Assembly (NCBI GenBank): GCA_027604185.1
Contig: JADGKB010000185.1
Span: 1-19,399, forward strand
Length of the DNA stretch: 19,399 nt
From: Boothiomyces macroporosus
Taxonomy: Eukaryota; Chytridiomycota; Chytridiomycetes; Rhizophydiales; Terramycetaceae
Direction: 5' to 3'
Each line of letters begins with the position of its first letter. The stretch's first letter is position 1. Below are positions 1 through 19,399 of the stretch, in pieces. The notes beneath the pieces are model-generated. The model saw only the letters and a list, made by a program, of their open reading frames with translations, ran no database searches and was not told where the DNA came from. The translations under genes and the position numbers were made by a program.

Positions 1-1276
1 AATTGAGCCATCTTTCTGGTTTATACTGAACTGCATCCTTCCATAGCTTTTCAGATCGTCCCATAGCGTAAGGGTAAAACGATACAATTGCACCTTTAGG
101 GATTCGTGTACCGTTGGGCAATATATCGTCTTGAAGCGCTACCTTACCTTCTCTTGGAACAGAAGGATAAAGTCTTAAAGTTTCTTTAAAAACTGCATTT
201 GCATACTTCATCTTTCTAACCTGTTCATAGTCTGGAATTTCTTTGTCTCCAAGAATATCTTTAATCTCTTTTAAAAGACATTCTTTAGCATGAGGGTTTT
301 TGGAAAGGCAATATAGTGTCCATGACAGTGCTTGGGCTGTGGAGTCTCTTCCTGCCAAGATAAAGCTAATAACATGGTCTGCAAGCTCTTCTGTACTTGG
401 CGACTGTCCATACTCGTCCCGATGCTCCATGAATAGGGATAACAAATCATTCCTTTTTTCCATAGTGTTCTTTCTATTTTCAACCACTTGATTCCCAAAT
501 TCGCGAATCATCTTGATATCCTCTCTTAAATTATAATTGAATTTATCCATTAACCTGAAGAATGGATTTACGAACCTACTTCCCATCACATTCTGGGATC
601 TATCAAATGCTCGAACGTAGCTTGGAGATTCACCTAGCAAACTGTTGATGTCAATCTAGAATGAAAAAGTAAATACTCCATAGGCAATCTTTCCGAATGA
701 ATCCATGAAATATCGTTGGAAAATATCATGCATATCGACAGGAACGTTTTGTGCCAAGTCCTTCAGTACCAAAAGTAAGATTGAAATATTGTCCGTGAAA
801 ACAGTATCAATGTATAATTTAAAGTTTCTATTGGTCATGATTTTAGCCGTAAGTTTTCTTTGAGTGTACCACTGGTGCCCATCACTATTGAATATCCCAT
901 TTCCAAGTACATCTTGCATCCGCGAATTGGTAAAAGTCCCTTTAACGTAATTTTCAAAATTAGTATTGGTGATATACTCGATACTCTGTGGATCATGTAT
1001 CATTATTCTTGGTTCTGAAAAGGGCACTGCTAGGACTAGTGCTCTTTCGAAATGGGGCGAATTAAGTTCTTGCGAGAGCAAATCGATTGAATTGTCTATA
1101 TCCTGTACCATCGCAAGCAAGCTTCCTATAATTGGCAAATGGAAGGAAGTTCTTTTCACATTCTTGTCGACTTTGATTGCACCGATTGGGTCATCCTTGT
1201 ACTTCCAGTATAATACCGCTCCGGCTATACCAATTAATCCGCATACTTTAGCAGCTTGCAGCCATGTCCCATCCAT
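1..1276 (-). CDS. Cytochrome P450 (P450-1), C-terminus cut by window edge
   Basis: Haem-thiolate monooxygenase, probably ER-anchored and acting on fatty acids or related lipids; the substrate is inferred only from resemblance to CYP52/86/704-type enzymes. Exon 1 is 1276..677 (200 codons), then a 21-nt intron (676..656), and exon 2 runs 655..1, giving 418 visible residues. Residues about 8-25 form a hydrophobic anchor followed by the charged YKDDPIG segment typical of this array. The I-helix motif AGRDST is at residues 301-306; its paralogues have AGRDTT. The K-helix ExxR (ETLR) is at 358-361 and PERW at 413-416. The haem-binding Cys loop lies beyond the left edge. The reading frame is intact through the visible part. 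It is the last gene of a head-to-tail array and its ATG is 203 nt from the stop of P450-2. Confidence 0.93.
656..676 (-). other. 21-nt intron of P450-1
   Basis: Phase 0, beginning GTATTTAC and ending CATTCTAG. Removal joins AYG to IDINS, as in every paralogue. Unspliced, it ends in an in-frame TAG. Confidence 0.93.
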
Positions 1277-1479
1277 GAAGGTTAAAGCTGAGTCTGCAGG
1301 TTATATAACGGGATAAATGACGCGGAGATGAGCAGTGGCGCCAACACCAAATGACCAAGAAATCATAAAAGTACCTCAAACCGCACATGAAAATTAAAAA
1401 AATTTCTTTATCAAAACTTCTGCCAGTGCTGAAATCAGGATTTCGAGTGTCATTGGGAGATCTCAATCTCCGATACCTC

Positions 1480-2972
1480 TTATCGCCTAGAGACGACACA
1501 CTCAAGTCCATTTTTCATTGGGAGAGTGAGCGACATTCTCTGTACGACTTTTGAAGTATCGACAACTTTAAAATCAAACTGTTTGAATAGTGCAACCAAA
1601 GTGAACACACCTTGGAGTTCTGCTAGGTTTTTGCCAAGGCAAATACGAGGTCCACACATGAATGCGACATATGCATAGTTGGAGGGGTTCTTTCCGTCTA
1701 GCCATCTTTCTGGTTTGTACTGAACTGCATCTTGCCATATCTTTTCAGACCTGCCCATTGCATACGGACAGAATGCTAGATTGGCTCCCTTTGGAACATG
1801 GATTCCATTTGGTAGAGTGTCGTCATTGACAGCAATTTTACCTTCTCTTGGAACAGAAGGGTACAAACGAAGAGTTTCTTTGAATACAGCGTTTGCATAC
1901 TTCATTTTCTTGATCTGATCATATTCTGGAATAAGCTGGTCTCCCAAAACTTGATCAATCTCTTCAATCAATTTTGCTTTGACTTTTGGGTTTTGGTGCA
2001 GGCAGTAGATGGTCCATGACAATGCCTGAGAGGTAGTGTCTCTTCCAGCCAGTATAAAGTTGATAACATGGTCGGCAAGTTCATCTGCTGAGAGTGCACT
2101 ACCATCTTCATTCCTATGATCCATGAAGAGTGACAGCAAATCATTCCCATTGCTGTTTCCGTTTACTTTTCTATCTTCAACAACTTTGTTGCCAAAGCTT
2201 CTGACAATTTCAATATCTCTTTGCAGTTGAGAATCAAACCTTTCTGTGATTGGCCAGAAAGGATTGATGAAGCGATCGCCCATTGCATTTTGGCAGCGAT
2301 CAAATGAGGCCACATAGTCCAAGGTACCTTCAGACAAACTGTTCAGCTCAATCTAATTTAGATATTTAGTACCCCATAGGCAATTCTACCGAAAGAATCC
2401 ATAAAATATCTGTGAAAGAGATTATGCATGTCAGCATTTCGTCCCTTCTCCACACACTCGTTCAAGACGTCAATGAACACCTTGATATTGTCCGTAAACA
2501 CCGTATCGATATTGTTTTTAAAGTTTCGGTTGGTGAGTATCTTTGCAGCCAGTTTCCGTTGAATAAACCAATCATGGCCATCAGTATTAAAGATACCATT
2601 TCCCAACACATCAGTCATACGAGATTTCGTGAAACTTCCTTTGATATAGTTTTCAAAATTTGTGCTGGTGATATACTCTACACTTTCCGGGTCGTTGACT
2701 AAAATTGTTGGCTCTGCAAATGGGATTGTTAGGAGAACAGCCTTATCAAACGATGGAGAATTTACTTCGGATGTGATTTTTAAGACTGACCCGTCGATAT
2801 CCTTCATCATTTCCAAAAGACTGCCTACGAATGGTAAGTGAAATGAGGTTCTATTGACAGACTTTTCTACTCGGATGGAACCAATAGCATCATCCTTGTA
2901 ATAATAATATATTGCGAATGCGAAACCCGCGGCGGTGACTGCTAGTTTTGCGCTTCCTAACCAGCTTTCCAT
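1480..2972 (-). CDS. Cytochrome P450 (P450-2)
   Basis: Complete P450 of 490 aa, the usual length for a microsomal enzyme. Exon 1 is 2972..2373 (exactly 200 codons) and exon 2 is 2352..1480, separated by a 20-nt intron. An N-terminal hydrophobic helix (residues about 8-25) is followed by YYYYKDDAIG. The oxygen-activating I-helix AGRDTT is at 302-307, ExxR (ETLR) at 359-362, PERW at 414-417, and the haem loop FMCGPRICLG begins at 431 with the thiolate Cys at 438. All catalytic hallmarks are present, so it should be active. Likely lipid hydroxylase; no CYP number can be assigned without a search. A reductase partner is not encoded in the window. The upstream spacer to P450-3 is 133 nt. Confidence 0.96.
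2353..2372 (-). other. 20-nt intron of P450-2
   Basis: Full sequence GTACTAAATATCTAAATTAG, phase 0. CTAAA supplies a branch-like A at position 15. Being 20 nt it changes frame, and its removal joins AYG to IELNS. Confidence 0.94.
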
Positions 2973-3105
2973 GCAAGTAAAAAAGTTGAGACTGCTTTTA
3001 GCTATGCCACCGCAGCACTGCCTTGGAAATTAATTGGCCGAGGGATTTTTCCGGTGCCCTTTCCGGTCATAACCAAAATTTTCAATCAATGATTACACTA
3101 ACGCT

Positions 3106-4626
3106 TTATTTTCGTTTTGTTATTTTGCACATTAAACCATTCTTCATTGGGAGAGTGAGCGACATTTTTTGTTTCACTACCAAAGGATCTAATATTTCAA
3201 AATCGAAATTCTTTAAAATCGAAACTAATGTGAAAACGCCTTGGAGTTCGGCCAAGTTTTTGCCTAAACAGATTCGAGGGCCGCACATGAAGGCAGTGTA
3301 TACATAGTTGGACGGTTGCTTGGAATTGAGCCATCTTTCTGGTTTGTATGCACTTGCATTTTCCCATAGCTTTTCAGACCGTCCCATTGCATATGGGCAG
3401 AACCCGACAATCGCGCCTTTAGGGATCTTTACTCCATTTGGCAAGACATCATTATTTAATGCAAGTTTTCCTTCTCTTGGTACTGAAGGATACAGTCTTA
3501 AAGTTTCTTTAAACACTGCTGTAGCATATTTCAATTTCTTAATTTGATCATATTCTGGAATCAATTGACTACCAAGGATTTCATCAATTTCTTTGACAAG
3601 TGCGGCCTTGGCAGCTGGGTTTTCGTACAAGCAGTACAGTGTCCATGATAGGGCTTGAGATGTTGTATCTCTCCCAGCAAGGATAAAGTTTATCACATGG
3701 TCAGCCAGCTCATCTGTGGATAGTTCTGTACCATCTTCATTCCTTTGCTCCATGAATAACGATAAGAGGTCGCTTTTGTTTCCAGCGTGCACACCATTCT
3801 TTCTGTCTTCAACAACCTTTCGCCCAAACTCCCTGATTAGCTTGACGTCGGTTTTCAAGAAAGGATTAAGCATATCAGCAAGGCGATAGAACGGATTGAT
3901 GAATCGATCTCCCATGGTGCTTTGTGATCTATCGAATGAGGCTACATAATTTGGAATACCTTTTGACAGACTTCCCATTTCAATCTATTATTAAACAATT
4001 ATTACTCCATACGCGATTTCACCAAATGAATCCATGAAATAACGGTGGAACAAGCTGTGCATATCTACATCCTGACCTTCTTGGACTGCCTGGTTCAGGA
4101 CGTTGATAAAGATTTGGATGTTGTCAGTAAACACAGTTTCGATATTTACTTTGAAATTGCGGTTGGTCAATATTTTGGCTGCCAGTTTTCTCTGTGTGAA
4201 CCAATCATGACCATCAGTGTTAAAAATTCCATTCCCCAGAACATCAGTCATTCGAGCTTTAGTGTAGTCACCTTTGACGTAATTGTCAAAGTTTGTGCTT
4301 GTGATATATTCGACACTTTCCGGATCATTCACAAATATTGTTGGCTCAGCAAAAGGGATAGTCAGCACTTTTGCTTTATCGAATCCTGGGTCATTGATTT
4401 CATCCGAAATCAAATTTCCTGATTCATCAACATTCTTTAACATGGCAAGCAGACCCCCAAAGATTGGATTATGGATTTTGAATCTGGGAACACTCTTGTC
4501 CACCCTGACCATTGCGCCAATTGCGTCATCTTTGTAGTACCAGTAAACGGCAGATGCTAGTCCGATCACAGCAGCCCCGACATAGTAAGCATCTTTTGAC
4601 TTTTCAATCCAGTTGTTTGACACCAT
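3106..4626 (-). CDS. Cytochrome P450 (P450-3)
   Basis: Complete P450 of 499 aa. Exon 1 is 4626..4006 (207 codons) and exon 2 is 3984..3106, split by a 21-nt intron. I chose the ATG at 4626 (MVSNNW) because it matches the start of P450-5 (MTNNWREK); an in-frame ATG at 4716 would add 30 residues with no homology. Anchor helix near residues 17-33, then WYYKDDAIG. Motifs: AGRDTT 310-315, ETLR 367-370, PERW 422-425, haem Cys 446 in FMCGPRICLGK. From just after the K-helix region to near the C-terminus it is almost identical to P450-4, because 218 nt are shared without a difference. Likely ER lipid hydroxylase. Confidence 0.96.
3194..3411 (-). repeat. 218-nt identical block, copy in P450-3
   Basis: Base-for-base identical to 4960..5177 in P450-4 (constant offset of 1766). 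It covers the PERW and haem-Cys coding region. Flanking coding sequence diverges at many sites, which fits a recent gene-conversion tract. Confidence 0.9.
3985..4005 (-). other. 21-nt intron of P450-3
   Basis: Phase 0, starts GTAATAAT and ends TTTAATAATAG. Three in-frame stops (TAA, TAA, TAG) prevent read-through. Joins AYG to IEMGS. Confidence 0.94.
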
Positions 4627-4871
4627 TGTTGCTACTTTCCAGTCCGGCGTTTTAAAGGTTTTACGGACCGTGTCACATGGCAAAAGACGGCCTTGAACAA
4701 CGAATGACGGCAACAACTCCGTGTTTTCCTGTCTACGATTAAATTAAAAAAATGGAGTGAATACATCCATATGCATTTCACTTTTAATTCCTCACAAGAA
4801 GAATGGGTTTGGTTCCCTGAGATAAGCAAATGTCCCTTCTAACTGTAAGGAAAGTGAACAAGCTAAATTCT

Positions 4872-6367
4872 TTATTTTCGTTTGGTTATTCTGCACATTA
4901 AACCATTCTTCATCGGGAGAGTGAGCGACATTTTTTGCTTTACTGATCCAAGGTCAATGATTTCAAAATCGAAATTCTTTAAAATCGAAACTAATGTGAA
5001 AACGCCTTGGAGTTCGGCCAAGTTTTTGCCTAAACAGATTCGAGGGCCGCACATGAAGGCAGTGTATACATAGTTGGACGGTTGCTTGGAATTGAGCCAT
5101 CTTTCTGGTTTGTATGCACTTGCATTTTCCCATAGCTTTTCAGACCGTCCCATTGCATATGGGCAGAACCCGACAATTGCACCCTTTGGTATTTTTATGC
5201 CATTTGGTAATGTGTCATCATTGACTGCAACTTTCCCTTCTCTTGGTACTGAAGGATACAGTCTTAATGTTTCTTTAAATACAGCGTTTGCATACTTCAT
5301 CTGCTTGATTTGATCATATTTAGGGATTAACTGATCACCCAGAATTTCATCAATTTCTTTGTAAAGTGCTGTCTTTGCTGCAGGGTTGTTGGAGAGACAA
5401 AACAGTGTCCAAGATAATGCTTGGGCGGTTGTATCTCTGCCGGCCAGAATAAAGCTAATAACATGGTCAGCCAGCTCTTCTGTAGTCAGTTTTGACCCGT
5501 CTTCGTTACAGTGGCTCAAGAACAAGGACAATAAATCATTTCGGTCATTATGAGGCTCACCAACCCTATCTTTGACCACCTTTTCTCCAAATTCTCTAAT
5601 CATCTTTATGTCGTTTTTCAAATACGGGTTAAAGAAATCCACAATGGGGAAGAATGGATTCACCAATCTATCTCCCATTGTATTTTGAGTTCTATCAAAA
5701 GAGACAACATAAGAAGGAATCCCTTGCGATAAACTATTCAAGTCAATCTAGGATTAGTCCATATTACCCCGTAAGCAATCTTTCCAAATGAATCCATGAA
5801 ATAACGGTGGAACAAGCTGTGCATATCCACCGGTGTCTGGGACTCTGCGACTGCATTCAACACTCCAATAAATATACCAATATTTTCTGAAAATACAGTC
5901 TCGATATTCAGCTTAAAGTTTCTGTTGGTCAATATCTTGGCAGAGAGTTTTCTCTGGACAAACCAATCATGACCATCGGTGTTGAAGATACCATTTCCCA
6001 ATACATCTGTTAATCGCCATTTGGTAAAGGTTCCTTTGATGTAGTTTTCAAAATTGGTATTAGTAATGTATTCCACGCTTTCGGGGTCATTCACAAAGAT
6101 AGTGGGTTCGGCGAATGGAATAGTGAGCACCTTTGCCCTATCGAAATCGGGACCATTCAATTCCTCTTCAATCAATATTCCGGAATTATCAATGTCTTTA
6201 ATCATTTGCAGCACACCACCCAATATCGGATTGTGGATTTTGAATCTTGGAACAGACTTGTCCACTCTTACAGTAGCGCCAATTGCGTCATCTTTGTAGT
6301 ACCAGAATGCAGCCGAAATGATTCCCAGTGCTGCACCAACAAAGTAGAAATTTCTTGTATTTTCCAT
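4872..6367 (-). CDS. Cytochrome P450 (P450-4)
   Basis: Complete P450. Exon 1 is 6367..5768 and exon 2 is 5747..4872, around a 20-nt intron. With the ATG at 6367 (MENTRN) exon 1 is 200 codons, exactly as in P450-1 and -2, and the protein is 491 aa; an in-frame ATG at 6403 would add 12 residues. N-terminal anchor around residues 7-23, then WYYKDDAIG. Motifs: AGRDTT 302-307, ETLR 359-362, PERW 414-417, haem Cys 438. The C-terminal third is nearly the same protein as P450-3, while the N-terminal half and I-helix region differ more. So substrate-recognition sites in the first half may have diverged while the haem domain was homogenised. This is inference. Confidence 0.95.
4960..5177 (-). repeat. 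218-nt identical block, copy in P450-4
   Basis: Partner of 3194..3411. Identity stops abruptly at both ends: G versus T just before, T versus C just after on the plus strand. Confidence 0.9.
5748..5767 (-). other. 20-nt intron of P450-4
   Basis: Full sequence GTAATATGGACTAATCCTAG, phase 0. ACTAAT is a textbook branch-point match. Joins AYG to IDLNS. Confidence 0.95.
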
Positions 6368-6729
6368 TGACGCTTTGAAAAAATAGGACAATTTATGGGT
6401 CAACTTGCGGCCGATGCATGTGAAAGGATAAGAACCAATTGATGATAAGAATGCGCCTAAAGGTGGCGAACGAGTATAGTATTTAGAATTTCATGTTGGT
6501 GCTGATGATGAGAATTTGGGCTACTGTTGGGGAGTAGTACCAAAATTGTTACAATTCGACGAGCAGTACCCGAATAAATTGGACCATGCAAGCTAAAGGA
6601 GCACCTTGCAAATAATGCAGTTTCAAGAATACCTTAAATTTCCACCATCGAGTATGTTGATTCTAAATTTAAAGTATTATTGTTCATTAACAGTCACCAG
6701 GATGAACAACTTGTAGCAAAATGATTTAT
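6368..6729. promoter_or_regulatory. 362-nt spacer between P450-5 and P450-4
   Basis: Largest spacer inside the P450 array. It should hold the P450-4 promoter and the P450-5 3' end. No open frame with recognisable homology, tRNA or repeat is visible. A CCAAT on the minus strand (6578..6582) lies in the context TCCAATTTA, also seen upstream of P450-7. I see no clear TATA box. Confidence 0.35.
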
Positions 6730-8289
6730 TTAATTCCTTCTTGTGATACTACACTGAAGGCCGTACTTCATTGGAAGCGACAAACTCTGCTTCATTGTTA
6801 CCGAAGCGGTATTTTCGATATTGAAATCAAACTGGCAAAGAATAGATACTAGGGTAAACACACCTTGAATTTCTGCAAGAGATTTGCCCAAGCAGATACG
6901 AGGCCCACAGTTGAATGATGGGAATTCATATTGGGTAGGTTGTTTGCCAGATAGCCATCTTTCAGGGAGAAACTGCTCCGGAGATTTCCAAATCTTGTCT
7001 GACCTGCCCATCGCATATGGGAGCCAAGCTACAATAGCACCTCTAGGAATTTTGGTACCATTTGGAAGAACGTCGTCATTAAGTGCACTTTTTCCCTCTC
7101 GAGGAACAGAAGGATAGAGTCTTAATGTTTCCTTGAATACGGCGTTGATATATCGCATCTTCTTGATTTGTTCGTATTTAGGAATCAGCTCTTCTCCAAG
7201 TGTTTCATCTATTTCTTTGAATACTTGTTCTTTTACTTTGGGATTCTGATGGAGACAAAATAAGCACCAGGATAGTGCCTGTGCAGTTGTATCTCTTCCA
7301 GCTAATATAAAATTGATTACATGGTCGGCTAATTCTTCATTTGTCAAGCTAGTTCCATCATCATGTCTATACTCCATAAACAAAGATAGCAAGTCGTGGT
7401 TATTGGATGGGGTGCCATTTTTCTTACGATCTTCAACAACTTTATGGCCAAAGCTCCTGACCAATTTGATGTCTCTTTGCAGCTTGAAATCAAACTTGTC
7501 GGTAATAAACCAGAAGGCACTGGTGAATCGATCTGCCATTGCATTTTGAGCGCGATCAAATGAAGATACAAAAGCTGCACTTCCTTTCTCCAAACTTTGC
7601 AAGTCAATCTGTGATTAAAAGGTAATTACTCCATAAGCAATCTTGCCAAAAGAGTCCATGAAATATCGGTGAAAGATGTTGTGCATATCAATGAGTTTAG
7701 CTTCACTAGCATGGTCGTTTAACACTTTAAGCAAGATATTGATATTGTCCGTAAATACAGTGTCAATGTTGGTTTTGAAATTCTTGTTTGTGAATACCTT
7801 TGAAGACAACTTTCTCTGGACGTACCAGTCATGGCCATCGGTATTGAATATTCCATTGCCAAGCACATCCGTCATTCGGCTCTTTGTAAACTTTCCCTTG
7901 ACGTAATTATCGAAATTGGTGCTGGTCACATACTCTACGCTCTCTGGATCGTTGATGAAGATATAAGGCTCTGAAAAAGGTATGGATATTGTTGTAGCGT
8001 TTTCAAATTCTGGAGAAAGCAACTCTTCTGTGATTCTAGGAGTAGATCTATCATGAACACCAACTTACTGGTCCATATCGTTCAGAATCTCAAACAGCGC
8101 ACCCACAATCGGCCGATGCATACTGGTTCTGATGTGAGATTAGATTTACCTTTTTACACTCTTGTCAACCTTTGCAGTAACTCCGATTGCATCGTCCTTG
8201 TAGTACCAGTACAATGCAGAGGCAACCCCAACTGCGGCCGCGCCTATGAAATAGTAATCTTTCATCTTCTCTCTCCAATTGTTTGTCAT
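6730..8289 (-). CDS. Cytochrome P450 (P450-5), four exons
   Basis: Complete P450 of 498 aa. Exons are 8289..8150, 8128..8069, 8047..7630 and 7608..6730, separated by three introns of exactly 21 nt each. A naive reading finds only the last two exons. The 5' part is recovered by joining KSVKR, then TSMHRPIVG, then DMDQSTPRITEELLSPEF, which aligns residue for residue with P450-2. Anchor helix near residues 13-30, then WYYKDDAIG. Motifs: AGRDTT 309-314, ETLR 366-369, PERW 421-424, haem Cys 445 in FNCGPRICLGK. By sequence it belongs with P450-1 to -4, but it keeps an N-terminal intron shared with P450-6 and -7, so it looks intermediate. Likely ER lipid hydroxylase. Confidence 0.94.
7609..7629 (-). 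other. 21-nt intron 3 of P450-5
   Basis: Phase 0, starts GTAATTAC and ends TTTTAATCACAG, with an in-frame TAA. It occupies the site shared by all seven P450s and joins AYG to IDLQS. Confidence 0.94.
8048..8068 (-). other. 21-nt intron 2 of P450-5
   Basis: Phase 2, starts GTAAGTTG and ends TTCATGATAG. Read through it gives CAG TAA, a stop. This acceptor rather than the next AG (which would make 33 nt) gives a protein of the same length as its paralogues here. Confidence 0.85.
8129..8149 (-). other. 21-nt intron 1 of P450-5
   Basis: Phase 2, starts GTAAATCTAATC and ends CACATCAG. Read through it gives AGG TAA, a stop. Same site as intron 1 of P450-6 and -7. Confidence 0.9.
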
Positions 8290-8400
8290 TGCAAAGATTA
8301 TCTGTTGACAAAGCTTAAATACTTTTCACGGAAAGCGGCCCTTAATAGTGGCTGGGTAAGGAATGCACTGACAAGCCAACACTGCTAAAGGGACAGGGAT

Positions 8401-9917: not shown

Positions 9918-10060
9918 TTCCAATTCGAAAAGATTTTGAAACGTTTGCGCTATCATGTTGCAAAATGGTCAGGGAATTTACCTGAAACTTGGAAAGTTTA
10001 GTGATTTGATTGGTGAGACAAAACAAGTGCCACAATAATACGGAAAAACTCCAATGCTAT

Positions 10061-11606
10061 TTATTTCTCGTTAAACTGCACTTGCATCCCGTATTTCATT
10101 GGGAATGTCAAACTGCAACCAGGCATAATTTTGTCCATATTTTGAATCTTGAAATGGAACCTTGCCAGTATGCTGACCATAACGAATACCCCTTGAATTT
10201 CTGCCAAGGTTTTACCCAGGCAAATACGAGGTCCACAATTGAAGGCTGGATATTCATACTGAGTGGGTTGTTTGCCAGTCAGCCACCGTTCAGGCTTGAA
10301 TTCTAATGGGTCAGTCCAGACTTTGCTGTTTCTTCCGTATGCATATGGGCAGAACGCAATAGCAGTGCCAGCTGGAACCGGGGTACCATTTGGCAACACA
10401 TCATCATTCACAGCAAGCTTTGCCTCCCTTGAAACAGAAGGGTACAATCGAAGAGCTAACGTTAAACATTCGTTTACATTCTTTAAAAACAGCGTTTGCA
10501 TACTTCATTTTCTTTACAGTGTCGTAGTCGGGAATCAATTGGTCATTCATGCTACTTTTGATTTCAGCAAGCAAAGTATCAAGGACATTAGGGTTTTTAA
10601 ACAAAGAGTAGAACGTCCAGCTTAGTCCTTGCGCTGTAGTATCTCTTCCGGCAATCAAAAAGTTCAAGACATGATCAATCAATTGATCATCAGTGAGAGG
10701 AGAGCCATCTTCGCTTTTATAATTCATAAAGAGCGAAAGCAAGTCGTTTCTGGTCACATTTACCTCTTGTCTTCTGTCATTGATAACCTTCAAACCAAAT
10801 TCACGTATCATCTTAATATCAGCATCGAAATTTGGATAAATGAATCTATCAGTCATACTAAAGAATGGATTAAAGAATCTTTGACTGGTAGCTTGCTGAA
10901 TACGGTCGAAAGCCTGGGCAAAAGGTACATTGTCTTTGGTTAAACTCTGGATTTCAATCTGAGTTAGAGAGCTATTACCCCAAAAGCAATTTCCCCAAAG
11001 CTATCCATAAAGAATCGATGGAACATATCATGCAAATCAACAGCTTGACCATCCTTTTCCTTCAATACTTTGATGAAGGTCTGCATATTTGAGGAAAAGA
11101 CCGTTTCAATGTTGGACTTGAATGCCCTAGCAGTGAAAATCTTTGAGGCAAGTTTCCTTTGCATATACCACTCCTGGCCATCAGAATTAAAGATTCCATG
11201 TCCCAAGAATTCAGTCACTCTCTTTCCCCACAAATGCCCTTTGACGTAGTTTTCAAAGTTTGTGCTCATGACATACTCCAAGCTTTCAGGGTCGTTGATG
11301 AGGATAACTGGCTCCATAAACATGTTGCTAATCACTTTTGCACCAGAGAACTCTGGATCCAAAACTTCTTGAGCAATATAATCAGACATTCTATCCATAT
11401 TGGTGAGGAACGAAAAAGTGGTTCCAACGACAGGCAAATGAGACTTTGCTCTAGATATTAGCAAATCCAAACCGTTGAACTTTGGAATCGATTCGCTTTG
11501 TTCCAATGGCATCGTTCCTAAAGTACCAGCATAGTGCGCTAACTAAACCAACCGCACCAGCCGCAGCATAGTAGTAATCTTTGATTCTTTCGCTCTTTCT
11601 TGACAT
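10061..11606 (-). CDS. Cytochrome P450 (P450-7), four exons
   Basis: Complete P450 of 493 aa and the first gene of the array. Exons are 11606..11473, 11450..10979, 10958..10478 and 10455..10061, with introns of 22, 20 and 22 nt. I chose MSRKSERIKDYYY (11606) by comparison with the starts of P450-3 and -5; the frame stays open to an ATG at 11696 that would add 30 residues. Anchor near residues 13-28, then WYFRNDAIG. Motifs: AGRDTT 305-310, ExxR as ESLR 362-365 (Thr replaced by Ser), PERW 417-420, haem Cys 441. All three intron positions match those of P450-6, its closest relative here. Probable ER lipid hydroxylase, transcribed away from the acyl-CoA dehydrogenase. Confidence 0.94.
10456..10477 (-). 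other. 22-nt intron 3 of P450-7
   Basis: Phase 1, starts GTAAACGA and ends TTTAACGTTAG. Removal restores FKESLRLYPSV. Confidence 0.95.
10959..10978 (-). other. 20-nt intron 2 of P450-7
   Basis: Full sequence GTAATAGCTCTCTAACTCAG, phase 0, with CTAAC as branch-like site. Joins AFG to IEIQS. Confidence 0.95.
11451..11472 (-). other. 22-nt intron 1 of P450-7
   Basis: Phase 2, starts GTTTGGAT and ends TGCTAATATCTAG. Joins KVQR to AKSHLPVVG. Confidence 0.94.
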
Positions 11607-12105: not shown

Positions 12106-13320
12106 ATGTTCAGAATCGCCAAAACCTTTTCAAGAGGAGCGAGATTATTTTCCTCATCCAGCATTGCCAGAACTACATCTCTGCATCATCTCACTCCGGA
12201 AGAAACCATGTTCAAGGAAGCCGTAGCAAAGTTTGCAAAGGATGTGATTTCTCCCAGAGTTCGTGAAATGGATGAAAAAGAAATGCTCGACAAGACAGTT
12301 TTGCAAGGGCTATTTGACAATGGGTTGATGGGGTTAGAAGTCCCTTCTCAATATGGCGGCTCTGAAGCTTCGTTCATGTCTGCGATTCTTGTTATTGAAC
12401 AGCTCGCCAAAGTTGACCCAGCTGTTGCTACCTTGTGTGATGTTCACAATACGGTTGTAAATACAGTAGTGCGAATGTATGGAACAGAAGCTCAAAAGGA
12501 AAAATACCTTGCTCCTTTGGCCACTGAAAAAGTAGGATCTTTCTGTTTGTCTGAAGCTGGTGCTGGATCAGATGCATTCGCTCTTCAAACTAGAGCCACA
12601 AAAAGCGGAAACAAATGGATATTGAATGGAACTAAAATGTGGATTAGCAATTCATACGAAGCGGATATTTTCTTGGTGTTTGCAACTGTCGATCCATCAT
12701 TGGGATACAAGGGAATTACTTGTTTCATTGTTGAAAAAGACTGGGGTGTCCAAGTTGCAAAGAAGGAGCAGAAACTTGGTATTAGAAGCTCCTCTACCTG
12801 TGTTCTTTCCTTTGACAATGTAGAAGTGCCAGAAGAAAACGTTTTGGGAGAAATTGGAAAAGGATACAAATACGCTATTGGAATATTAAACGAAGGAAGA
12901 ATCGGAATTGGTGCATTGATGACTGGGCTAGCCCAAGGCGCTGTTGACTCTGCCATTCCGTACACATTCCAAAGAAAGCAATTTGGTCAGTTTATCGGTG
13001 ATTTCCAAGGAATGCAGTTCCAATTTGCTCAAGTACAAACTGAAATTGAAGCCGCTAGATTAATGACTTACAATGCTGCTAGATTAAAAGAAGAGGGAAA
13101 ACCTTTTGTTATGGAAGCTGCAATGTGTAAATTATATGCTGCTCAAGTTGCAAAGAAAGCTGCTGCTTTGGCGATTGAATGGACTGGAGGTGTAGGCTTC
13201 ACCAGAGACTTGATTCTTGAAAAGTACTATAGAGATGTTATGGTTGGGCAAATCTATGAAGGCACCTCAAACGTTCAACTACAAACCATTGCCAAGATGC
13301 TCAAGCCTAAATATGCTTAA
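12106..13320 (+). CDS. ACADSB: Short/branched-chain acyl-CoA dehydrogenase, mitochondrial
   Basis: FAD enzyme that oxidises short branched-chain acyl-CoAs (such as 2-methylbutyryl-CoA of isoleucine catabolism) in the mitochondrial matrix, passing electrons to ETF. The 404-aa product is closest to ACADSB by many diagnostic stretches, such as KVGSFCLSEAGAGSD, GYKYAIG and the C-terminal IYEGTSNVQL. Both family signatures are present: CLSEAGAGSD, and EWTGGVGF continuing to EKYYRD. The catalytic base is Glu385 in IYEGT. The start at 12106 gives an Arg/Ser-rich amphipathic presequence (MFRIAKTFSRGARLFSSSS); an upstream in-frame ATG at 12043 looks like non-coding extension. It is the only complete gene here without an intron. 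Its stop lies 15 nt from the ERG27 stop. Confidence 0.96.
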   Translation: MFRIAKTFSRGARLFSSSSIARTTSLHHLTPEETMFKEAVAKFAKDVISPRVREMDEKEMLDKTVLQGLFDNGLMGLEVPSQYGGSEASFMSAILVIEQLAKVDPAVATLCDVHNTVVNTVVRMYGTEAQKEKYLAPLATEKVGSFCLSEAGAGSDAFALQTRATKSGNKWILNGTKMWISNSYEADIFLVFATVDPSLGYKGITCFIVEKDWGVQVAKKEQKLGIRSSSTCVLSFDNVEVPEENVLGEIGKGYKYAIGILNEGRIGIGALMTGLAQGAVDSAIPYTFQRKQFGQFIGDFQGMQFQFAQVQTEIEAARLMTYNAARLKEEGKPFVMEAAMCKLYAAQVAKKAAALAIEWTGGVGFTRDLILEKYYRDVMVGQIYEGTSNVQLQTIAKMLKPKYA

Positions 13321-13335: not shown

Positions 13336-14402
13336 TTATTTGTGGTTTGTCCATTCTTGTTTGTATTTGCCGTATAGCAAGTTTAGCTTTCGAACCAGTT
13401 TCTTGCTCATAATATCATCCTTTTCGTCATACTTTAGTTCAATTGATCGAACCCATCGCTGAGCCAATATATTGATTTCGCTGTGATACATTAAATTGGG
13501 ATTGATCTTTTCTGGCTCAGATTTGGCTACCCAAAGAGCGGAGGTAGCTGCGTTGTAACCGGTAATGTTTATTCCTGAGCAGAAAAAGATGCGCATCTAC
13601 GTTAAGAAGGGATTACAAGGATTAGTGCAAACAGGATCAAAAACTCACCCACTGCTCCTTTGGTGATTCCCGAAAGGACATTTCCAGGTGAGGTGATAAA
13701 AGAGTACACATTTCTTTCTCTCAATTCAGCGTTAACTCCAATACTAATCAGCTCGCATAACCTTTTTGACGACTCGTACGGTTTTGGTCTAAAATTAAAG
13801 TTAAATGACATACCCGTGAAGACACTGAAAATCCTCTGGATCAAAAAATGCAGTTTCGGAAGCAGTAGTAGAAGAACACCAAATGACTTTACCAGCACCA
13901 GATGCGGACAGCAAGTCTGTAAATTCTTTTACCAAGATATAATGACCGAATACATTGGCAGCAAATACTTGCCCCAATCCTTGCGGTGTTTGTTTTCCGA
14001 CTTCTTGTACAATAATATCACCGCCTGTTCTTGCAACATATCCAGGATCTGTTAGCAGTTTTGTTACACCATGTGCCAAATCAATTCGATCTACTGGCAT
14101 AATACCTGCATTCAAAAAGAGGTAATCCAAGACCACAAATCGCTCCTTGACTTTTTGAACCATATTAAAGACACTATTCGTATCTGAGAGATCGCACTGC
14201 ACACATGTTATTTGACTGGAAAAGATTTCAAATTCGTCCAGCAGCTGCTGTTTGGTCTACATTAACTTGAACTCACCAATTCAGCATTCTTGAGTGATCT
14301 GCAAGCTAGGATCAAATGAATGTCAGAGAATGTTTCCAGTAGTTGCTGGCAGATTCCTTTTCCGACTGAACCATTGGCGCCAGTAATCAAAGCGAGCTGC
14401 AT
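13336..14402 (-). CDS. ERG27: 3-keto-steroid reductase, ERG27/HSD17B7-like
   Basis: Short-chain dehydrogenase predicted to reduce the C3 ketone during C4-demethylation of sterols in the ER, using NADPH. The 333-aa protein comes from exons 14402..14277, 14256..13814, 13788..13617 and 13596..13336, with introns of 20, 25 and 20 nt. Cofactor motif TGANGSVG at 7-14 (Ser where many SDRs have the last-but-one Gly), NAG at 91-93, catalytic-type Ser in WCSS at about 170-171, and YxxxK as Tyr194/Lys198. After the catalytic core come a hydrophobic stretch (FLILFALIL) and a conserved YNAATSALWVA segment, as in HSD17B7 proteins. That supports ERG27 over a generic SDR. Tail-to-tail with ACADSB and head-to-head with the VPS9 gene. 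Confidence 0.9.
13597..13616 (-). other. 20-nt intron 3 of ERG27
   Basis: Full sequence GTAATCCCTTCTTAACGTAG, phase 0. Removal skips a TAA and joins the hydrophobic FALIL to MRIFF, keeping the HSD17B7-like alignment. Confidence 0.85.
13789..13813 (-). other. 25-nt intron 2 of ERG27
   Basis: Longest intron in the window. Phase 2, starts GTATGTCA and ends CTTTAATTTTAG. Removal creates the active-site segment HGPKPYESSK. Confidence 0.93.
14257..14276 (-). other. 20-nt intron 1 of ERG27
   Basis: Full sequence GTGAGTTCAAGTTAATGTAG, phase 0. Joins SLKNAEL to TKQQLLDEF. Confidence 0.9.
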
Positions 14403-14431: not shown

Positions 14432-15633
14432 ATGGCTGTTGACTATGAAAAGTTTATCACACAGCTAAGGACAGAAGAGGGGGCTCCTTTAAAACTCAAA
14501 TTTCAAAAGTAAAACGAAAAGCTAAACCTAGTTTTCTGGTGCAGTTTGAGCGGGAGGCAAAGACGCTGCAACTGCAGAGGAAGCTCATTGCAAAGTTTCT
14601 TGTACGGATACTGGAAGATTCTCAGAATCACTTGGCATTCATCGACAAGGAAGACCAGTCTTTTGATGAGGAAAATGTAAAGGAAGGATGGGAAAAGGTT
14701 TGTCTAACTAACCTAGTTGGTCATGGCCAAGGTATTTGATTTGGTCTTTGGAGCCCCAACTACCGATGAACACAAGTCGAATGCGCTTCTCGCAAAGCAA
14801 ATAAAGACTTACTCGTGGATAGAAGAGCGACACTTGGATTTGAAAATCAACTTTTCGCTCTCATTGGAAGTCGCACAAGCAGAGCTGCTGCGCATCAATG
14901 GATACAAAGCGCCAAGGGATAAACTAATCATCCTTCACAATGTAATGCAAATTATAGTCGGTATATCTGTCCTCAACTAGATCTGATTAAAAAGTGGGGA
15001 ACCAATGAAGCGTCCAACAATGATTCGCTCTTGCCAACCCTAATCTTGGTTATTATTAGGGCAAATCCTCCAAATCTGATTAGCAATATCAAGTACATTA
15101 GCAGATATCGCAATGCGCAGGAAATGGAGCAGGGGAACAACCAATACTGTATGACAAATATGATGGGTGCCCTTTCATTCATTTACAACATGTCTCACAA
15201 GTCTCTTACCTTGACAGACAAAGAAAAATCCGAATGGTTGCCTAATCTTAACGATAGGGCCGGTGAAACAAAAGGAAGCGAACCAAATCTAAACAAATTC
15301 GCTGCTTCAGCCAAAGAAGAATTCGTTCAATTTTCAAGCCAAGTAACTGATTTTTTCGGGTCTTTTATCAAAGAAGTCAAAAGTACAGCTGATGAATTGT
15401 TGAATTCAAATCCTACTTCTCCCAAAGACCAAGTGTTTACTCCAAATAGCTTTGGTCCACCAGAGTTACCAACTCCCACTACTGGGAATAGTGCTGAACG
15501 AGAGTACATTGATAGGGAAAGGTATGAGTTGGATTTGGCTATTGCCATGTCACTGTCAGAAAACCAACAAAAACCACCAATGTTTGAAGAATCATTTGAT
15601 GAAGAGATCGAGTTACAAAAGAGCAAAAAATAA
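14432..15633 (+). CDS. VPS9: VPS9-domain Rab5-type GEF with C-terminal UIM
   Basis: Predicted guanine-nucleotide exchange factor for Rab5/Vps21 GTPases on endosomes. The 379-aa protein comes from exons 14432..14508, 14532..14697, 14717..14960 and 14981..15633, with introns of 23, 19 and 20 nt. The N-terminal half is a helical bundle. The VPS9 core (about residues 145-235) carries LPTLILVIIRANPP and ISNIKYI, with the family's invariant Asp (177), Tyr (218) and Thr (221) kept. Near the C-terminus ELDLAIAMSLSE (345-356) fits a ubiquitin-interacting motif, with the key Ala and Ser. Yeast Vps9 instead ends in a CUE ubiquitin-binding domain, so assignment as the functional equivalent is inferred. 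Head-to-head with ERG27; its stop is 22 nt from the LEU2 stop. Confidence 0.9.
14509..14531 (+). other. 23-nt intron 1 of VPS9 gene
   Basis: Phase 2, starts GTAAAACG and ends GCTAAACCTAG. Joins LKLKFQN to FLVQFEREA; unspliced it hits TAA at once. Confidence 0.9.
14698..14716 (+). other. 19-nt intron 2 of VPS9 gene
   Basis: Full sequence GTTTGTCTAACTAACCTAG, phase 0, with two overlapping CTAAC branch-like sites. The two flanking frames differ by 19 nt, so no other GT-AG pair here works. Confidence 0.92.
14961..14980 (+). other. 20-nt intron 3 of VPS9 gene
   Basis: Full sequence GTATATCTGTCCTCAACTAG, phase 1. Joins MQIIV to DLIKKWG inside the VPS9 domain. Confidence 0.92.
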
Positions 15634-15655: not shown

Positions 15656-16779
15656 TTATATTTGTGATAGTTTTTGTTTGAATACAGCGGCTACAGCATC
15701 GCCAACTTGGCTAGTAGTTGCACTTCCACCCAAATCTTTTGTTCTTAGCTTTTGTACATCAATTACATGAGCGACGGCTTCTTCTAGCGCTCTAGCCTCC
15801 TTTTTCATATTCAATGAACATTCTAGAAGCATAGCAGCACTGAGTATAGTACCAATTGGATTTGCGATTCCTTGTCCAGCGATATCTGGAGCAGATCCGT
15901 GAATAGGCTCGTAAAGTCCCAAACTGGCTTCTCCCCATCCATTCAAACTGGCGCTAGGCAATAGACCCAAGCTTCCAGGAATTACTGAAGATTCATCAGA
16001 CAGGATATCACCAAACATATTTTCAGTCAAAACTATCCCGTTCAGCTTACGCGGATTCATAACCATGTGCATAGCAGCAGAATCTACCAAATTATGATAC
16101 AGTGGAATTTGAGGGAATTCCTTTTCAAGAGTTTCGGTAACTACTCTTCTCCAAAGTCTAGAGGTAGCCAACACATTTGCCTTGTCGATTGAAGTGATTG
16201 CAAGTGGAGGATTATGAAGCAGGGCGAGGTTGGCTGCAACTCTGGTAATACGTTTAACTTCGTCGACAGTATAAGTCATTACATCATGGGCTACAAGTTA
16301 ATAAAGTGCTTACCAACACCATCTTTCTCTTCAGTGCGATCTCCAAAGTAAATACCACTAGTCAGTTCGCGAACAACAGTAAACTTTACATCCTTTACAA
16401 TCTCTGGTCGAAGTGGAGAATGATCAATCAGCGTAGTGCCAGGGAAAAAGCATGGTCTGATGTTTGCAAACAGATCCAGCTCTTTCCGAATTTTCAACAG
16501 TCCTTGCTCAGGTCGTGCAGGAGTTGGGTTTTCTTTAGTTGCAGGTCTTGGCCATTGGGGTCCACCAACAGCCCCCAAGAGGATAGCATCTGCCTTTCTA
16601 CAAGCTTCAAGTGTGGTATCTGGCAGTGGAACACCAGAAGCATCGATTGCTGATCCTCCGATTAGATGCGTTGTAAAAGTTAATCCAGGAATTAGTTCCA
16701 ACACCTTCTGCGCTTCAGCAACGACTTCAGGCCCTACACCATCGCCAGGAAGTAGAATAATATTCTTTTGATTAGTCAT
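15656..16779 (-). CDS. LEU2: 3-isopropylmalate dehydrogenase
   Basis: Leucine biosynthesis: NAD-dependent oxidative decarboxylation of 3-isopropylmalate to 2-ketoisocaproate. The 366-aa protein matches the family length. Exons are 16779..16314 and 16290..15656, around a 23-nt intron. Visible determinants: [11 protein letters not shown] at the N-terminus; substrate-binding Arg98, Arg108 and Arg137 (last in [11 protein letters not shown]); catalytic Tyr144 and Lys192; metal-site Asp225, Asp250 and Asp254; and the IDH/IMDH signature starting NMFGDILSD at about 246. There is no mitochondrial presequence, so a cytosolic location is expected, as in yeast. The promoter side is a 150-nt spacer shared with a divergent carrier gene. 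Confidence 0.97.
16291..16313 (-). other. 23-nt intron of LEU2
   Basis: Phase 1, starts GTAAGCAC and ends TTAACTTGTAG. Joins EKDGV to AHDVMTYT, the conserved order in this family. Confidence 0.95.
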
Positions 16780-16929: not shown

Positions 16930-17836
16930 ATGGATTTCAAAAAGACTGATTGGCAGAAACAAACAGGAATTAATTTTCTATCGGTAATTTGACGATTGAT
17001 GACAGGGCGGATTCGCTCTCGCAACAGCTTTCGCAGTTATGCATCCCTTAGATACCCTGAAGACACAATTACAGACTCACCAGCCGATAGTGATGAAGAA
17101 CTTGGGAAGAGGATTCACGATTAGCTTCCTCTTGGCAGCACCTCAGGGTGGACTGCGGCTGTCAACTTATGAGTACAGCAAATCTTTTCTGTCAACAAAA
17201 AACATTGATAGCACTCTAGCGTCTGCAATATCTGCTTGTGCTGGTGACACGGTGTCTTCCATTGTCAAAGTTCCTCGAGAAGTAGTTACAGCACGTCTGC
17301 AGTCAGGTGTGGACTTGCAATCCATAAAGGGCGGAAACCCAGCACTAGCAACAATGAAAATGATTGTCAGGGAGCAGGGAGTTAAAGGATTGTTTAGAGG
17401 GTTTTGGAGTACCACAGCAAGAGACTGGCCATTTATGGTTATTTTGTTTACCACTTACGATTCTTTCAAACACAAGCATCAGGCTTATATAGGGCAAGAG
17501 CCTGATGATATTACTACAGTCAAGTCTACAATATTTGGGGGTATCTCTGGAGGTCTAGCGGGATTTTTAACTACACCATTTGACGTGATAAAGACCAATA
17601 TCATGACAAAAAGTTCAAGCTCCTCGATCTTTGTGGTTGGAAAGGAATTGCTACAGAAGAGCGGGACCAAGGGACTATTTGTTGGCGGAGGAGCCAGAAG
17701 TGTGTGGTGGTAACTGTATTTTGAATTTAGGTTCTGTGTTTGCTCAATGTTTTTCCCAATGTACGAAGCTGGCAAATCTACCCTTGGATCAGCTTTTGTA
17801 AAGGAATACGGACATCAAAAACTGGTAGTCGGTTAA
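16930..17836 (+). CDS. Mitochondrial carrier family (SLC25) protein
   Basis: Inner-membrane metabolite carrier of 287 aa, the usual length for the family. Exons are 16930..16983, 17006..17709 and 17731..17836, with introns of 22 and 21 nt. Three tandem repeats are seen. The first has PLDTLK at residues 32-37 and the third PFDVIK at 209-214. The second reads PREVVT at 108-113, so the usual final Lys/Arg is Thr. Each repeat continues with a GxxGLFRGF-like segment. The VPREVVTARLQ context and third repeat resemble S-adenosylmethionine-type carriers, but the first repeat (LAAPQGGLRLSTYE) does not, so I leave the substrate open. Divergent from LEU2; the stop is 27 nt from the BMT2 stop. Confidence 0.9.
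16984..17005 (+). other. 22-nt intron 1 of carrier gene
   Basis: Phase 0, starts GTAATTTG and ends GATTGATGACAG. Joins INFLS to GGFALATAF, the first carrier helix. Confidence 0.92.
17710..17730 (+). other. 21-nt intron 2 of carrier gene
   Basis: Phase 2, starts GTAACTGT and ends TTTTGAATTTAG. Read through it gives TGG TAA, a stop. Removal adds the last helix, SMFFPMYEAGK. Confidence 0.92.
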
Positions 17837-17863: not shown

Positions 17864-18653
17864 TTATTTCATGGTTATACAAAAGTTGTTTCTAGCAGGT
17901 CCAGGAGCAATTTCCACTTTTTTGAATTCCTGCTGCTGGTATTCGCCATTGAACTTGAACAAGTAGTAAGCCAATTTCTTTGAGTGGTGCTCAGCAATCA
18001 ACGAGTAGCCCAATGAAAACACAATATGTTTAAGATGATCATTAGTGCAATATCTAGAGTTTGTCACACATGGTAGAGGTAGGACCAAGTAAAACAACCC
18101 ATCACCCGCCAAATGCTTGGAGACAATTTGCAGCATCCTTCCTCTATCTTCAGCTTCAGGCACGAAATTAATTACCAAAGACAAACAAACGATATCAAAC
18201 TTTTCTGCTTGCGTTGCAGGTATTGGCCGAAGAAAGAAATCCTGTTTAATCACCAGTGGCGATTGCGAATTCAAGTCAATAGAAGTTACTTTAAGAAATT
18301 GGTACTTGATGTACACCTCTCCTGAGATTGCGCCAACATCCAGCATTTTCATGTTTGGTTTTACTAATTTGAAGAGCTTCAATTTATCTACCAGCCATTT
18401 CCCTGCCGAGCCCCACCTGCATTAGCAATAAATACCCTTTATCCATGCTTCCGCCTTTTAGTGATGCTCGCTGGTAGGTGTCAAGTCCACCCAGCTCGTT
18501 AATTTCTTTGTTGATTTTGTCGATTGCCTCCGCATCGCCTACTTTCCTTGATTGCGATAGTTTTTTATTCAGCGTATGGAATTTAGAAATCAATTTCTGT
18601 GTATCCTTAATGGTTTTTCTCTGAGTAATGGGTTGCTTTAATTTTTTTTTCAT
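17864..18653 (-). CDS. BMT2: 25S rRNA adenine-N1 methyltransferase, Bmt2-like
   Basis: SAM-dependent nucleolar enzyme; yeast Bmt2 makes m1A2142 in 25S rRNA. The 256-aa protein comes from exons 18653..18436 and 18416..17864, with a 19-nt intron between. A basic, helical N-terminus leads to the family motif LGGLDTYQRASLKG (about 54-67). The SAM-binding core follows: LDVGAISG from 98, IDLN at 119-122, and QDFFLRP. The family signature LPLPCVTNSRY is at 185-195. Animal relatives (SAMTOR) share the fold, but the LGGLxxYQxASL stretch points to the fungal rRNA enzyme. Its stop is 27 nt from the carrier stop and its ATG is 155 nt from the MIR1 ATG. Confidence 0.92.
18417..18435 (-). other. 19-nt intron of BMT2
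   Basis: Full sequence GTATTTATTGCTAATGCAG, phase 2, with CTAAT as branch-like site. Removal joins SMDKG to WGSAGKWLVDKL and switches to the frame that holds the SAM-binding core. Confidence 0.94.
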
Positions 18654-18674
18654 AAAAAATTTACAGCGCTAGAT

Positions 18675-18701
18675 AGGTGAAATGTATTAGAAATTTCGCC
18701 T
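18675..18701. repeat. Inverted repeat in BMT2/MIR1 divergent spacer
   Basis: Arms AGGTGAAAT (18675..18683) and ATTTCGCCT (18693..18701) are complementary except for one G-T pair, around a 9-nt spacer. It could be an operator-like site between the two promoters, or chance. Confidence 0.35.
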
Positions 18702-18808
18702 GTATCCACGTATACCAACTTTATGGTATTGTTATCTATTGTCCCACCCCCACGTTCCATATTAAAAAATTTTAAAACCAATTTTTTTTTCTCATCATAA
18801 ACTTACTA

Positions 18809-19399
18809 ATGGGCAAGCACGTAATTACCTATTAAGCATTAGGAACAAGGACCATTCACTCTCGCTTATTTCACAAAGGGAGCATTAGCTGGCGGTATTT
18901 GCTGTGGTGTTACCCATGGTGCATTGACACCTGTGGATGTCGTCAAAACTCGTATCCAATTGGAGCCTACTGTATACAACAAAGGCATGATTTCTGGTTT
19001 CCGTCAAATTATTGCCAAGGAAGGTGTTGCTGCTTTGGCTACTGGCTTTGGACCAACTGCTGTTGGCTACTTTGTTCAAGGATGGTTCAAATTTGGAGGT
19101 GTAGAATTCTTCAAGGTAAAGGCTGCTCAAGCTTTGGGAGATGAAAAGGCATGGCAATACCGTTTACCAATCTACTTGGGTGCTGCTGCCGGTGCTGAAT
19201 TCATTGCTGATATTTTCTTGTGTCCTCTTGAGGCAACTCGTATTAGATTGGTTTCCAACCCAGGATTTGCTTCTGGATTGTTCAGTGCTTTCCCAAAGAT
19301 TATTGCTCAAGATGGTGTTATTAAAGGTTTCTACTCTGGATTTGGCCCAATTTTGTTCAAGCAAATTCCATATACTATGGCTAAATTCGCTGTCCAAGG
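18809..19399 (+). CDS. MIR1: Mitochondrial phosphate carrier, 3' end cut by window edge
   Basis: Imports phosphate into the mitochondrial matrix for ATP synthesis. Exon 1 is only 12 nt (18809..18820, MGKH), then a 22-nt intron, and exon 2 runs from 18843 past the window; 189 residues are visible. The protein follows yeast Mir1 closely: [43 protein letters not shown] and [15 protein letters not shown]. Carrier signatures are PVDVVK at residues 34-39 and PLEATR at 132-137; the third repeat is off-window. The start is chosen because it is the only ATG that joins in frame through a GT-AG intron. No separate presequence is seen. Confidence 0.95.
18821..18842 (+). other. 22-nt intron of MIR1
   Basis: Phase 0, starts GTAATTAC and ends TTAAGCATTAG. 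An earlier AG would leave a TAG stop immediately after, so this acceptor is required. Joins MGKH to [10 protein letters not shown]. Confidence 0.9.

Follow-up and report, generated by a model that had tools for sequence, protein, structure and literature searches.

Here we describe a class of very short introns in the chytrid fungus Boothiomyces macroporosus (Terramycetaceae, Rhizophydiales, Chytridiomycota), a free-living soil saprotroph. The window, that is, the whole stretch of 19,399 nucleotides (nt) that was analysed, comprises positions 1-19399 of contig C185 in an assembly of 15.2 Mb and 216 contigs. It contains 14 genes, including seven tandem P450 genes, and 13 of the 14 are interrupted by GT..AG segments of 19-25 nt. 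The set of introns of about 20 nt is real as sequence and is found genome-wide. We estimate the probability at roughly 94% that these are genuine U2-type spliceosomal introns, spread over the genome in a narrow class of 19-23 nt and removed by the ordinary major spliceosome; both splicing and the branch point are predicted from sequence.

The genome-wide extent was examined in a 200-kb sample, taken as two adjacent 10-kb pieces of every contig from C1 to C10 (1.3% of the genome). Gene prediction with intron length left free performed too weakly, bridging genes that are separate, and tests on pairs of open reading frames (ORFs) were used instead. The cleanest test employed a motif model derived from the 24 window introns only, which was applied to 140 ORF pairs outside the window with five decoy dinucleotide pairs as controls; motif cut-offs trained on the tested introns would be circular, and only the window-only model was used as a test. 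At threshold 2.5, 43 of the 140 pairs had a GT..AG join of 19-22 nt (43 joins in all), versus 0, 0, 0, 0, and 0 for the decoys. Other lengths up to 150 nt gave no clear excess over decoys in the same 140 pairs at this threshold: 0 joins vs 0, 2, 0, 0, 0 at 10-18 nt; 0 vs 2, 5, 0, 2, 3 at 26-40 nt; 6 vs 5, 5, 8, 0, 1 at 41-60 nt; 10 vs 7, 16, 10, 6, 9 at 61-100 nt; and 18 vs 7, 24, 19, 14, 30 at 101-150 nt. The stricter threshold of 3.5 gave 31 joins of 19-22 nt vs five zeros, while the laxer threshold of 1.5 gave 55 vs 1, 0, 0, 0, 1 in this class and 4 vs 0, 2, 0, 0, 1 at 10-18 nt.

Simpler counts point in the same direction. In the first count of GT..AG joins (sample plus window) there were 206 at 19-25 nt, where nine other dinucleotide pairs gave 51-140; at 26-40 nt GT..AG did not stand out (220 joins vs 134-296 for the other pairs). 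Among 155 coding-like ORF pairs, 15 of them from the window, 84 could be joined by a GT..AG segment of 19-25 nt vs 15-27 for seven decoys, and the excess was concentrated at 19, 20, 21, and 22 nt (17, 35, 31, and 9). Applied to the window, the ORF-pair method finds 9 of its 24 introns; outside the window it joined 74 pairs, of which 60 had a single possible join, and judged from the decoys perhaps 20 of the 74 were joined by chance. With regard to selection for stop codons in 21-nt introns, 21-nt candidates lying within long ORFs showed no excess (4 vs 2, 7, 13, 5 for decoys; small numbers), and a stop codon is present in 25/25 uniquely joined 21-nt introns, but by construction. In the whole genome, the motif GTAATT-N(0-30)-TTAAY-NN-TAG, which captures a minor fraction of them, has 327 matches vs 35 for the reversed control. 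Among the 100 of these 327 matches listed, with lengths of 16-46 nt allowed and about 1.3 matches per length expected from base composition, 91 fall at 20-23 nt (56, 21, 10, and 4) and 9 have other lengths between 16 and 44 nt. A survey of intron lengths across the genome had been proposed in the first-pass annotation of this window; the ORF-pair tests on the sample and the motif count over the assembly both found a narrow class of about 20 nt. The ORF-pair numbers suggest a genome total of very roughly ten thousand introns, which is an estimate and not a count.

The window itself was re-examined gene by gene. All 24 GT..AG segments named in the first-pass annotation are present, each once in its gene, and their lengths are 19 (2), 20 (8), 21 (6), 22 (5), 23 (2), and 25 (1) nt with a mean of 21.04 nt. 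Their removal restores the reading frame as had been claimed: 13 of 13 gene models have 0 internal stops, compared with 1-26 stops in the unspliced frames. The genes and introns are as follows (window positions; plus or minus strand).

1..1276, minus: P450 gene 1, 3' part beyond the window edge; 1 intron, model with 0 internal stops, start codon identified
656..676, minus: intron of 21 nt, P450 gene 1; site common to 7/7 P450 genes
1480..2972, minus: P450 gene 2; 1 intron, from gene model and alignment
2353..2372, minus: intron of 20 nt, P450 gene 2; site common to 7/7 P450 genes
3106..4626, minus: P450 gene 3; 1 intron, from gene model and alignment
3985..4005, minus: intron of 21 nt, P450 gene 3; site common to 7/7 P450 genes
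4872..6367, minus: P450 gene 4; 1 intron, from gene model and alignment
5748..5767, minus: intron of 20 nt, P450 gene 4; site common to 7/7 P450 genes
6730..8289, minus: P450 gene 5; 3 introns, PF00067 at residues 92-480
7609..7629, minus: intron of 21 nt, P450 gene 5; site common to 7/7 P450 genes
8048..8068, minus: intron of 21 nt, P450 gene 5; site unique to this gene
8129..8149, minus: intron of 21 nt, P450 gene 5; site common to genes 5, 6, and 7, genes 1-4 without interruption
8401..9917, minus: P450 gene 6; 3 introns, from gene model and alignment
8796..8815, minus: intron of 20 nt, P450 gene 6; site common to genes 6 and 7, genes 1-5 without interruption
9297..9316, minus: intron of 20 nt, P450 gene 6; site common to 7/7 P450 genes
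9789..9810, minus: intron of 22 nt, P450 gene 6; site common to genes 5, 6, and 7
10061..11606, minus: P450 gene 7; 3 introns, from gene model and alignment
10456..10477, minus: intron of 22 nt, P450 gene 7; site common to genes 6 and 7
10959..10978, minus: intron of 20 nt, P450 gene 7; site common to 7/7 P450 genes
11451..11472, minus: intron of 22 nt, P450 gene 7; site common to genes 5, 6, and 7
12106..13320, plus: acyl-CoA dehydrogenase gene; without intron, the sole uninterrupted gene of the window
13336..14402, minus: short-chain dehydrogenase (SDR; 3-keto-steroid reductase-like) gene; 3 introns
13597..13616, minus: intron of 20 nt, SDR junction 3; protein continuous in 7/7 aligned relatives
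13789..13813, minus: intron of 25 nt (window maximum), SDR junction 2; continuous in P0121 and P0123
14257..14276, minus: intron of 20 nt, SDR junction 1; continuous in P0121 and P0122
14432..15633, plus: VPS9-domain protein gene; 3 introns, PF02204
14509..14531, plus: intron of 23 nt, VPS9-domain gene; from gene model
14698..14716, plus: intron of 19 nt, VPS9-domain gene; from gene model
14961..14980, plus: intron of 20 nt, VPS9-domain gene; junction within the VPS9 match
15656..16779, minus: isopropylmalate dehydrogenase (LEU2-type) gene; 1 intron, PF00180 over the whole profile
16291..16313, minus: intron of 23 nt, LEU2-type gene; junction within the Iso_dh match
16930..17836, plus: mitochondrial carrier gene; 2 introns, PF00153
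16984..17005, plus: intron of 22 nt, mitochondrial carrier gene; from gene model
17710..17730, plus: intron of 21 nt, mitochondrial carrier gene; from gene model
17864..18653, minus: Bmt2-type 25S rRNA methyltransferase gene; 1 intron, PF11968 at positions 2-221 of 221
18417..18435, minus: intron of 19 nt, Bmt2-type gene; junction within the Bmt2 match
18809..19399, plus: second mitochondrial carrier gene, presumably of phosphate-carrier type, extending past the window end; 1 intron, PF00153
18821..18842, plus: intron of 22 nt, second carrier gene, after the 4th codon; from gene model

In the alignment of the paralogues the 13 P450 introns fall at only 4 sites (in 7, 3, 2, and 1 genes), and the 24 introns therefore represent 15 distinct sites. 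P450 gene 5 was scanned with Pfam and the six others were named by their similarity to it. The intron that genes 5-7 carry at alignment column 49 is absent from genes 1-4, which read through the site; at the site of the intron in genes 6 and 7, the uninterrupted genes 1-5 encode FKETLRLYPS. At the site common to all seven, an intron of 20-21 nt is kept with a mean inner identity of 51%, compared with 75% in the 60 nt of upstream exon. In a Pfam scan of 7 of the 14 window proteins, 5 of 14 junctions lie inside the best-matching stretch. An alignment of the SDR protein to seven annotated relatives was made at the protein level. In the three closest (P0121 from Terramyces JEL0728, P0122 from Boothiomyces JEL0866, and P0123 from Boothiomyces JEL0838), junctions 1, 2, and 3 are continuous in 2, 2, and 3 proteins, respectively; P0123 begins downstream of junction 1, and P0122 is without the stretch preceding junction 2. 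This indicates that public gene models already imply such introns, if unevenly. A missing stretch in the SDR gene model of JEL0866 and the truncation of that of JEL0838 are what one would expect if automated gene prediction has difficulty with introns of 20 nt. A reading of the third SDR intron as about 52 nt was ruled out, all seven relatives being continuous as the 20-nt reading requires.

These alignments also bear on whether sequencing or assembly indels, or decayed pseudogenes, could mimic introns. The assembly does contain duplicated stretches, which leaves some place for artefacts of this kind, but errors would not produce insertions with GT and AG at their ends, a fixed branch motif, and lengths within a few nt of each other, and decoys joined 0 of 140 ORF pairs against 43. 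Moreover, the proteins of relatives are continuous, and an insertion at one site is retained in all seven paralogues while its sequence has diverged well beyond that of the exon. We regard such an artefact as very improbable.

The anatomy of the introns was compiled from 84 sequences, 60 sampled from C1-C10 (which may include a few chance joins) and the 24 of the window, with 14 ambiguous non-window pairs excluded. The commonest donor is GTAATT (17/84), and position -3 of the acceptor is T or C in 78/84. A branch-like motif, mostly T/C-T-A-A-T/C, is present in 57/60 sampled and 23/24 window introns. Branch sites were scored by motif, and their positions are predictions: the putative branch A lies at nucleotide 14-16 in 53/57 sampled and 19/23 window introns, with 5-6 nt after it in 51/57 and 18/23, respectively. 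With GT..AG ends in 24/24, the branch motif in 23/24, and the frame restored, the window segments look like spliceosomal introns in every tested respect, and their description as spliceosomal-type is supported.

Removal by another route was also considered, whether by DNA elimination as in ciliates, RNA cutting of the HAC1 kind, or programmed frameshifting or bypassing. The size of the segments, unusual for a fungal spliceosome, speaks for such a route. Against it, the lengths occupy all three classes modulo 3, so that no one frameshift fits, and the GT-AG ends, the branch motif, and the canonical pairing regions of U1, U2, and U6 described below fit a spliceosome. We know of no such DNA elimination in fungi, and a non-spliceosomal mechanism is in our view highly unlikely.

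The first-pass annotation had pointed to the homologues of U1, U2, SF1, U2AF, and Prp8, and we inspected them: candidates are present and the regions checked are canonical. U1 small nuclear RNA (snRNA) starts with AUACUUACCUG at its 5' end, each of two U2 genes contains GUGUAGUAUC, and U6 carries ACAGAGA, so that the pairing region of all three is canonical. The candidates for Prp8, Slu7, SF1, Prp18, and ISY1 score above their family cut-offs, as does the Cir_N domain of the candidate Cwc25. The glycine plug of Cwc25, MGGGDLNLKKSWHP, is intact at locus L038 and in its identical copy L039. The ISY1 protein of Boothiomyces sp. JEL0838 starts with MAPKTLAQKQEANILKKYDG (MAPKTLAQKQEANILKKYDGVDRTRN), where 6 of 10 other aligned sequences have MARNEEK or MARNSEK. 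The N-terminus is divergent in the ISY1 gene studied here (L043) too; its 5' region can be spliced in more than one way, and because the 5' gene model is uncertain this divergence is a hint only. At that 5' end two introns like those of 20 nt seem to abut, which might be a nested or twin intron; an intron of 49 nt at this place agrees with the JEL0838 protein.

Several observations weigh against a uniform class of tiny introns handled by an ordinary spliceosome. The ISY1 gene has a 46-nt intron, GTAAGT..CTAATGTTAG, with the usual 3' end, and a query built assuming this intron matches, over its full length, ISY1 of JEL0838 at 98% identity; a candidate 80-nt intron, also with a GTAAGT donor, lies near U2AF65. 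These gene models show that the limit on length is not absolute and that longer introns exist. The first-pass claim that introns are only 19-25 nt is true within the window, but the 46-nt ISY1 intron does not conform to it. The longer introns may keep the canonical donor, and two cases prove nothing. In the ORF-pair test at threshold 3.5 there were 3 joins of 41-60 nt vs 1, 1, 1, 0, 0 for decoys, which allows for a small number of longer introns. No GT..AG join of 19-25 nt was found in 66 of the 140 sampled pairs; many of these are probably neighbouring genes, or pairs bridging two introns (intron chains). Of the 84 introns, 44 carry T at donor position +5, 16 carry C, 13 carry G, and 11 carry A; the usual G is thus found in only 13/84 while the pairing regions of U1 and U6 are unchanged. 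The U1 candidate scores 68.8 bits, 0.7 below the family cut-off of 69.5, in a search at E up to 1 in which 3 of 14 control genomes also matched, none above the cut-off. U5 was not found in a search that was uninformative, the controls being silent too. The U2AF65 candidate reaches 230.7 bits in a six-frame search against a whole-protein cut-off of 310.3; the best match holds four in-frame stops, and the gene model has introns of 19 and 20 nt. The 24 further matches of this search mostly resemble general RNA-binding domains, and controls matched in 2/14.

In Stentor coeruleus, introns are 15-16 nt with GU-AG ends and a branch A at nucleotide 10, and the commonest intron is GUAAUUUUUAUAUAG; Slu7 and Prp18 were not found, the Cwc25 plug is lost, and the N-terminus of ISY1 is not conserved, a change proposed to accommodate the tight lariat (PMC9505925). 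The Boothiomyces introns are like those of Stentor in their GU-AG ends, very narrow length, fixed branch A followed by about 5 nt, and canonical U1, U2, and U6, and the commonest Stentor intron starts with GUAAUU, the commonest donor here. They differ in the branch A at about nucleotide 14-16 rather than 10, and in belonging to a fungus and not a ciliate. Slu7 and Prp18 are both detected and the Cwc25 plug is kept in Boothiomyces; judged from these candidate genes, its spliceosome is not of the Stentor type in the two features tested.

The first-pass annotation had further taken the short introns to imply a spliceosome adapted to them. The analysis does not establish this: the parts checked are canonical save for the divergent ISY1 N-terminus, whose gene model is uncertain, and longer introns exist. 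A related explanation, which overlaps with ordinary U2-type splicing instead of ruling it out, is a specially remodelled spliceosome in which, for example, a changed ISY1 N-terminus gives room for a tight lariat. The divergent ISY1 start in JEL0838 is consistent with it, as is the likewise non-conserved N-terminus in Stentor (PMC9505925), but the 5' gene model is uncertain and ISY1 of Globomyces (P0147) is also partly divergent. In addition, the Cwc25 glycine plug, lost in Stentor, is intact here, and candidates for the step-two factors Slu7 and Prp18, not found in Stentor, are present. We consider such remodelling possible but rather unlikely.

Under the interpretation favoured here, that of ordinary U2-type splicing of introns close to the lower limit of size, each intron would consist of a donor of the GTA(A) type, a branch A at about nucleotide 14-16, and 5-6 nt running to a (T/C)AG acceptor. 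The donor would be recognised by U1 and then by U6, the branch site would be bound by U2 and the 3' end by SF1/U2AF, and step two would proceed via Slu7/Prp18, giving a lariat loop of about 14-16 nt with a tail of 5-6 nt. In the human B complex, the helices formed by U6 with the 5' splice site (5'SS) and by U2 with the branch site lie about 15 nm apart, an estimated 52 nt is needed between 5'SS and branch site, and at 46 nt extracts no longer supported splicing (PMC6692369). A 5'SS-to-branch distance of about 14 nt would nearly use up the nucleotides that pair with U1 and U2. Because of this spacing requirement of about 52 nt in the human B complex, we infer that the intron ends may be bound sequentially or the B complex re-arranged; exon-defined assembly is another option. 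It can be proposed, with what we judge an even chance of being right, that a free-living fungus removes thousands of introns with about 14 nt from 5'SS to branch by a largely canonical spliceosome that assembles in an undescribed way. U1 might be gone before U2 docks, the assembly might be exon-defined, or the B complex might be re-folded, and a remodelled ISY1 N-terminus would perhaps help. If this proposal is true, the tiny-intron state needs no mass loss of splicing factors.

The comparison with chlorarachniophyte nucleomorphs and Stentor made in the first-pass annotation is apt, and the Boothiomyces introns have the narrow length near 15-25 nt genome-wide and the putative branch A nearly fixed from both ends that mark such systems. 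Yarrowia lipolytica has introns of ordinary length, and Batrachochytrium belongs, like Boothiomyces, to the order Rhizophydiales. The nucleomorph of Bigelowiella natans has introns of 18-21 nt (PMC10245619, PMC2483917), which resemble those described here in length range, narrowness, and relatively large number, but it is the reduced genome of an endosymbiont, unlike the 15.2-Mb fungal genome. Mikrocytos mackini, with introns of 16-17 nt (n=224) and a highly reduced spliceosome (PMC10245619), shares the very narrow length and conserved motifs; Boothiomyces differs in having probably thousands of introns and in keeping the step-two factors. Introns of Paramecium bursaria (median about 24 nt; PMC12862383) are likewise tiny, numerous, and U2-type with a conserved spliceosome, but Paramecium is a ciliate and its introns are longer on average. 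The placement of the branch site near the AG, without a polypyrimidine tract between, is shared with Y. lipolytica (PMC2483917). In the chytrid Batrachochytrium most transcripts are spliced (PMC5364385). Lim and others surveyed 644 fungal genomes, with intronless microsporidia at one end; the parts of the survey drawn on here name no fungus with introns of about 20 nt, and the word Boothiomyces is absent from its main text (PMC8476143).

The first-pass annotation was also not aware of any free-living fungus with a uniform set of such short introns. Among the matches listed in the openly licensed literature of PubMed Central (closed-access papers lie outside that search), none reports tiny introns from a fungus, which agrees with the statement. 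Introns of about 20 nt in this fungus are, so far as seen, undescribed in print, and the gene models of its relatives contain some. Uniform introns at the lower size limit have been described from ciliates, a nucleomorph, the parasite Mikrocytos, and dicyemids, in the sources as far as covered here. A fungal case, taken as free-living, with canonical pairing regions and step-two factors suggests that tiny introns are separable from genome reduction; the kept step-two factors, together with canonical U1, U2, and U6, suggest that they are also separable from the loss of splicing factors. Introns of this length lie well below what known spliceosome structures appear to permit, and the contrast between about 14 nt available and the human estimate of about 52 nt (PMC6692369) poses a sharp question for structural biology. 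In practice, many genes of such genomes will be broken by gene-prediction and RNA-mapping software in which a larger minimum intron is assumed.

Other observations concern the gene content and the assembly. The window acyl-CoA dehydrogenase is 100% identical to a Boothiomyces sp. JEL0838 protein in a protein search. A yeast as host, suggested at first by the LEU2-type and P450 genes, was rejected on the strength of this match to Boothiomyces. Seven same-strand tandem P450 genes (1-11606) were unexpected in a chytrid, and we take the array to resemble the alkane-hydroxylase (CYP52-type) arrays of some yeasts. Within their 3' parts, P450 genes 3 and 4 are identical over 218 bases (3194-3411 vs 4960-5177) with flanks of about 76-85% identity, which looks like recent gene conversion. 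The two Cwc25 loci, L038 (G000:C49:3542) and L039 (G000:C100:5137), are identical over all 3,111 bases, and identical matches to the whole-genome motif occur at C2:283666/326262 and C3:205544/227162; these copies point to duplicated stretches or unmerged haplotypes.

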